From Cheilinus undulatus (lineage: Eukaryota; Chordata; Actinopteri; Labriformes; Labridae), in NCBI RefSeq assembly GCF_018320785.1, contig NC_054885.1:7824921-7888920 (forward strand): a stretch of DNA of 64,000 nt. Direction: 5' to 3'. This document shows positions 36,322-36,358 of this stretch, one piece after another (positions within the stretch are counted from its first letter, which is position 1; each line of letters begins with the position of its first letter). A model generated the notes under the pieces. That model saw nothing but the letters and a program-made list of their open reading frames with translations. It searched no databases and was not told the DNA's origin. A program made the translations under genes and the position numbers.

Positions 36322-36358
36322 GGAAGTCCCTTCACTTTCATTTTCCGAACCAGTTTCA
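36322..36358 (-). promoter_or_regulatory. Distal IRF + NF-kappa-B composite element of interferon gene 2
   Basis: In gene orientation the sequence reads GAAACTGG, then GGAAAATGAAAGTGAA (36331-36346), directly abutting GGGACTTCC (36322-36330). GAAAATGAAA is a perfect GAAANNGAAA ISRE core. The arrangement resembles the PRDIII-PRDI-PRDII order of the mammalian IFNB1 enhancer. It lies about 510 bp above the ATG. Confidence 0.55.

Follow-up and report, generated by a model that had tools for sequence, protein, structure and literature searches.

The DNA upstream of a type I interferon gene of Cheilinus undulatus appears to contain two, perhaps three, regulatory modules, and we assign a probability of about 0.72 to the reading that it controls this interferon, which is nearest to group I, and makes it inducible by viruses. 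Throughout, the window is the whole 64-kb stretch of DNA that was analysed. Judged by its sequence, the two-module upstream region is probably genuine as a virus-responsive promoter, though of a fairly ordinary kind, since both modules are partly preserved in a sister gene; inducibility through IRF3/IRF7 and NF-kappa-B is proposed by analogy with described fish interferon promoters. Infection would activate IRF3/IRF7 and NF-kappa-B, which would bind together to the ISRE and kappa-B site of a distal block (block B) and would also occupy the looser IRF and kappa-B sites of a proximal block (block C), and binding at the two blocks would raise interferon transcription. A third block farther upstream (block A) may contribute IRF and ATF/CRE sites, and block B could both start transcription itself and enhance the proximal start.

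The preliminary description of this DNA placed the motifs above a fish interferon gene, and database comparisons agreed: the protein, with exon boundaries set by eye on open reading frames, matched Pfam PF00143 (E = 1.1e-8), and its best PDB match was 3piv (“Interferon”; E = 6e-22), followed by 7wkh (5e-19), “Interferon 4” (7e-19), and “Interferon d” (8irq; 1e-18). “Interferon C” (7wz5; 0.002) and “Type I interferon 2” (3piw; 0.02) matched more weakly. We take 3piv to be the zebrafish group I structure, 3piw to be that of group II, and 7wkh to be group I as well. The group I label given earlier is in keeping with the nearest structures but stays tentative in view of the cysteine pattern (residue 12, in the signal peptide region, and residues 20, 21, 51, 64, and 118, with no plain pair). 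The gene does not read as a member of the IFNd subgroup, with an E value to 8irq of 1e-18 versus 9e-59 for one gene of a second interferon pair, on contig C20, whose other member reads alike.

Four type I interferon genes were detected in the assembly, a count that may miss more divergent ones and that leaves out stretches on C18 (E = 0.19, two stops), C2 (E = 4.3), and C5 (E = 9.8). All three weak matches were set aside before the count; a further tblastn gave nothing on C2 and one match with an E value of 1.8 on C5. The sister of the window gene (C21:7980740-7985967) is encoded on the other strand, with about 120 kb between the two starts, and the starts of the IFNd-like pair on C20 are about 29 kb apart. 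On these two different contigs, the members of each pair have opposite orientations and their upstream regions face each other. The two pairs are possibly copies of a duplicated ancestral pair.

Table 1. Features of the interferon gene and its upstream DNA (positions in the window; distances from the ATG are negative)
Feature	Positions	Strand	Description
Type I interferon gene	33199..35812	-	187 aa, five exons, all introns phase 0
Coding exons	35812-35687, 34341-34267, 34136-33984, 33498-33421, 33330-33199	-	
Proximal TATA-like GGAATAAAAATCC	35890..35902	-	AATAAAAA starts at 35900; 25 bp after kappa-B
Antisense IRF-like GAAAAGAGAAAG	35908..35919	+	Downstream of proximal kappa-B
Proximal module (in block C)	35926..35958	-	Sense GAAAGGGAGAGTAGAAAGACTGA, then kappa-B GGGAATTTCT
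GTGCTAAATAAACTTCCCACA	36298..36318	-	TATA-like TAAATAAA at 36314-36307; paralogue 21/21 identical
Whole conserved block B	36298..36349	-	-537 to -486 from ATG; 84.6% identity over 52 columns
Distal module (block B)	36322..36346	-	ISRE GGAAAATGAAAGTGAA and kappa-B GGGACTTCC
Block A	36577..36655	-	-843 to -765; IRF-like sites and ATF/CRE-like TGATGTCA; paralogue TGACGTCA

An ISRE/IRF stretch had been described as running straight into a kappa-B site, and it does: on the minus strand, GAAAATGAAAGTGAA (36345-36331) adjoins GGGACTTCC (36330-36322) with no gap, the two together covering 36345-36322. An extra GAAAC starts nearby, at 36357. The exact 24-mer of this composite occurs a single time in the whole 1.17-Gb assembly. 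Searched for on both strands of the window, a strict composite (GAAANNGAAANNGAA followed no more than 6 bp on by GGGRNTTCC) was found once, and it was found in none of 120 64-kb sequences simulated with a first-order Markov model and in none of 120 simulated with a third-order model. When the kappa-B part was instead written as the 10-base GGGRNNYYCC, no composite was found in the window; the distal kappa-B site is therefore of the 9-base form. Each part alone is ordinary in number. Exact GAAANNGAAA occurs 17 times in the window, with 7.8 (first-order) or 6.9 (third-order) expected, and GGRRNTTCC occurs 6 times, with 6.0 or 4.2 expected. A looser rule (two GAAA words within 32 bp upstream of a kappa-B site, at most one mismatch), whose motif classes were set after the sequence had been seen, gave 4 matches at 3 places in the window, compared with 1.2 matches expected from 80 first-order Markov sequences of 64 kb. 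The interferon promoter contains two of these places, and the third (23857) is outside it. Applied to 57,494 further bases from eight loci, some of them overlapping (L018 lies inside L023 and L019 inside L022), the looser rule found the distal block of the sister gene and one unrelated place; within the same bases it found nothing in the IFNd-like pair.

We considered whether the distal module could be a chance cluster of AT-rich GAAA words. The exact GAAANNGAAA count, about twice the first-order simulated number, would fit such a cluster, as would a direct alignment to the window of the 57-bp human IFNB1 enhancer, taken from the excerpted text of three papers (PMC4743414, PMC10308904, and PMC2662838). 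Equal or better scores were obtained elsewhere in the window: block B is absent among the seven matches listed, of which four score 14, and the proximal module ranks sixth with 13, a score shared by one other place. However, the strict composite arose in no simulation and block B is conserved in the paralogue, and we regard a chance origin as very improbable. An RNA family scan of the window gave no match. A literature search, with subscription papers largely outside its reach, did not find the distal element. In a check of sequence strings against the literature, the papers containing GGAAAATGAAAGT were unrelated by title and the other four fish strings were absent, while the human string was present.

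Conservation of the upstream DNA was assessed by comparison with the sister gene and thus concerns two paralogues of one species. Block B aligned at 55.4 bits and block C at 74.3 bits, whereas the best score from 300 dinucleotide shuffles of the sister sequence, 292 of which gave any match, was 34.6 bits. The ISRE of block B (GGAAAATGAAAGT) is identical in the sister gene, but the kappa-B site differs (GGGACTTCC in the window gene versus GGGGGTCTC in the sister). The pairing of ISRE with kappa-B thus holds for the window gene, and only its ISRE half is shared; we rejected a conserved IRF and kappa-B pair in the paralogue, where the ISRE and TATA-like parts hold and the kappa-B part fails. The conserved 21 bp also include GGGAAGT, presumably an ETS-like site. 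Block B ends about 485 bp from the ATG in the window gene and about 755 bp from it in the sister.

A longer comparison of the two genes at a threshold of E = 1e-3 aligned block B, exon 1 together with block C, a stretch from exon 2 through the short second intron to exon 3, and exon 5 plus 3' DNA. Introns 1 and 3, exon 4, block A, and the remaining upstream DNA did not align at that threshold. This pattern bears on whether block B might be a leftover of gene duplication with little present function. Divergence of the kappa-B half between the two genes could be explained in this way. Yet introns 1 and 3 and most of the upstream DNA do not align, and block B has nonetheless kept 85% identity; we think this origin unlikely. 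A repeat origin is likewise disfavored: a 191-bp query around block B, run against the 1.17-Gb assembly in a search that skips very common words, gave two matches at E values up to 1, namely, itself and the upstream DNA of the sister. Since only the sister genes were matched, block B does not look like a repeat.

Blocks A, B, and C stand in the same order upstream of both sister genes, and the distance from block A to block B is 228 bp in the window gene and 221 bp in the sister. The block A alignment (79 bp) scored 35.6 bits against a best shuffle of 34.6 bits (n = 300) and is absent at E = 1e-3, so block A is weak on its own; the comparison suggests, but does not prove, that it is conserved.

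Nearer to the gene, a second IRF and kappa-B pair had been reported at 35908-35935. The pair exists, although the IRF-like half lies on the other strand and is one mismatch from GAAANNGAAA. Sense-strand GAAA sites directly before the proximal kappa-B site (35958-35936) had been overlooked; this stretch, GAAAGGGAGAGTAGAAAGACTGA, resembles human GAAAGGGAGAAGTGAAAG. The kappa-B site itself, GGGAATTTCT (35926-35935), is one mismatch from GGGRNNYYCC. Both the proximal and the distal TATA-like boxes are noncanonical.

The preliminary description left the choice between a distal enhancer and an alternative upstream promoter undecided; a TATA-like box at a promoter-like distance in the distal block now favors the alternative promoter. 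Upstream of each of the four interferon genes, TATAAA or TAAATA is preceded by an ISRE (no more than one mismatch) whose start lies 26 to 33 bp before it; this distance range was also chosen after the sequence had been seen. In three of the four regions the ISRE is exact. Among 400 random 1.5-kb sequences matched to the window's composition only, such a pair was present in 0.25% (exact) or 1.5% (one mismatch). Across both strands of the window, the exact form occurs once, in block B, and the one-mismatch form occurs seven times: two overlapping matches in block B, three overlapping ones in and just below block A, and two unrelated ones (22301 and 54002). The unit of the IFNd-like pair lies about 100 to 140 bp from the ATG and is therefore presumed to be the promoter of those genes. 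Given this geometry in four of four regions, the distal block is more readily seen as a promoter unit than as an enhancer alone. Because its conserved TATA-like box lies 31 bp from the ISRE start, as in the IFNd-like geometry, block B can probably both initiate transcription and enhance the proximal start. A shared ISRE-to-TATA unit is thus suggested upstream of all four detected type I interferon genes, and such a unit would make the question of a distal versus a proximal start directly testable.

A more specific proposal, which we advance tentatively and consider rather unlikely in its full form, is that block B represents an additional, full interferon promoter (ISRE, kappa-B site, and TATA-like box) with IFNd-like core geometry that stayed behind upstream after a new proximal promoter had formed by the coding exon. 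The two starts would then yield infection-timed messages that encode the same secreted interferon behind different leaders, the distal message being restrained by upstream ATGs. Alternatively, block B may act from upstream solely as an enhancer for the proximal promoter, with no start of its own and with TAAATAAA serving another factor. To this alternative, which is a narrower form of our main reading and whose odds overlap with it, we give somewhat less than an even chance. It would account for the conservation of block C with the sister through the 5' leader into exon 1, for a proximal module with the human 25-bp gap between kappa-B and TATA, and for a distal leader with multiple ATGs and, in the window gene, no GTRAG donor. 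It fits less well with the best-conserved 21 bp, which span a TATA-like element at the IFNd-like geometry, and with the proximal TATA-like box, which is not kept in the paralogue (the sister has GGAGCAAAAATTC at that position, with GCAAAAAT in place of the box). As an enhancer alone, block B would be ordinary.

Under the reading in which block B does start transcription, the leader of the distal message can be described. The distal TATA-like box is 502 bp upstream of the ATG in the window gene and 772 bp upstream in the sister, and the intervening DNA contains 6 and 20 ATGs, respectively. In the window gene, a search for splice donors of the form GTRAG found one at -485, which precedes the distal start, and none downstream of that start; the paralogue has one at -202 that is not conserved. 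As far as donors of this form are concerned, we therefore rejected a spliced upstream leader giving rise to a signal-less interferon. With an unspliced leader holding 6 ATGs and no conserved donor, a distal message would more plausibly be a poorly translated or untranslated by-product, and most of the secreted protein more likely comes from the proximal start.

The human IFNB1 enhancer consists of the elements PRDIV, PRDIII-I, and PRDII, and the order of the last two had been likened to that of the fish sites. As in human IFNB1, GAAA half-sites are followed by kappa-B in sense orientation in both fish modules, and an ATF/CRE-like site is also present upstream. The distance from kappa-B to TATA is 25 bp in the fish proximal module and 25 bp in human IFNB1, as measured on the sequence in the excerpted portion of PMC2662838. 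In contrast, the last GAAA is 2 bp from kappa-B in the human enhancer but 5 bp (distal) or 6 bp (proximal) from it in the fish modules; the human ATF-like site abuts, whereas the fish site, found in a search for CRE-like sites over 1.5 kb upstream of the interferon, is at -775 in block A, more than 200 bp above block B; the fish distal gap from kappa-B to TATA is 7 bp; and the human gene has one module where the fish gene has two or three. The proposed likeness to PRDIII-I/PRDII thus stands for the order of IRF sites and then kappa-B but not for rigid spacing, and it is a likeness of order rather than of letters, because the direct 57-bp alignment does not have block B among its seven listed matches. 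This suggests that the IRF-then-NF-kappa-B order of human IFNB1 operates without rigid spacing in the control of one fish interferon.

Described fish promoters offer further parallels. According to the excerpted text of PMC5127012, fish IFNa/phi1 promoters typically have two regions with alternative starts. Like the salmonid and zebrafish genes, the window gene has separate proximal and distal regions, here blocks C and B with their IRF and NF-kappa-B sites. Salmonid messages with a long leader and many start codons were initially ascribed to one promoter per form, and later work explained the two trout forms by alternative splicing, not by two promoters (PMC3828176, in excerpt). A distal start in the window gene would likewise produce a long, ATG-rich leader. 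As far as the excerpted accounts go, the long forms of trout and zebrafish lose the signal peptide, whereas an unspliced distal transcript here would keep exon 1. In large yellow croaker, the excerpted text of PMC5013148 reports that the IFNd and IFNh promoters have several IRF sites as well as predicted sites for NF-kappa-B and ATF-2, an arrangement similar to the present one; in reporters, the distal IRF site was needed, and constructs whose only IRF site was the proximal IRF3 site were inactive. The essential croaker sites given there are at -306 (IFNd) and -171 (IFNh), whereas in the window gene the ISRE of block B lies at -533 from the ATG.

Possible distal modules were also seen in the IFNd-like pair. 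About 1.43 kb upstream of the second gene (about -1431), a reversed ISRE adjoins a full kappa-B site (TTTCATTTTCTTTCTGCGGGACTTCCC), which on its sequence is a possible further distal module; the other gene has a looser ISRE and kappa-B form at about -728. Their comparison gave an E value of 0.28, and an E value of 0.5 was not reached with 2.5 kb and low-complexity filtering. For these reasons, this pairing is not relied on.

Elsewhere in the window, a fish-type NLR exon with FISNA, NACHT, NOD2 winged helix, and NLRC4 HD2 domains lies at 1099-2907 on the minus strand. Fragments of Tc1/mariner-type transposases (Pfam HTH_Tnp_Tc3_2) are at 7701-8099 (plus) and 30316-30651 (minus), and a GIY-YIG domain fragment at 46505-46939 (minus) is perhaps the end of a Penelope-like retroelement. 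The divergent neighbor of the interferon gene has an RRM-domain exon (41810-42172, plus; E = 1e-4) that looks like RDM1. A second exact ISRE-like GAAAACGAAA (38655-38664, plus), 2.3 kb from the distal module, lies beside a CCAAT-like stretch and what may be the first exon of a gene on the plus strand.
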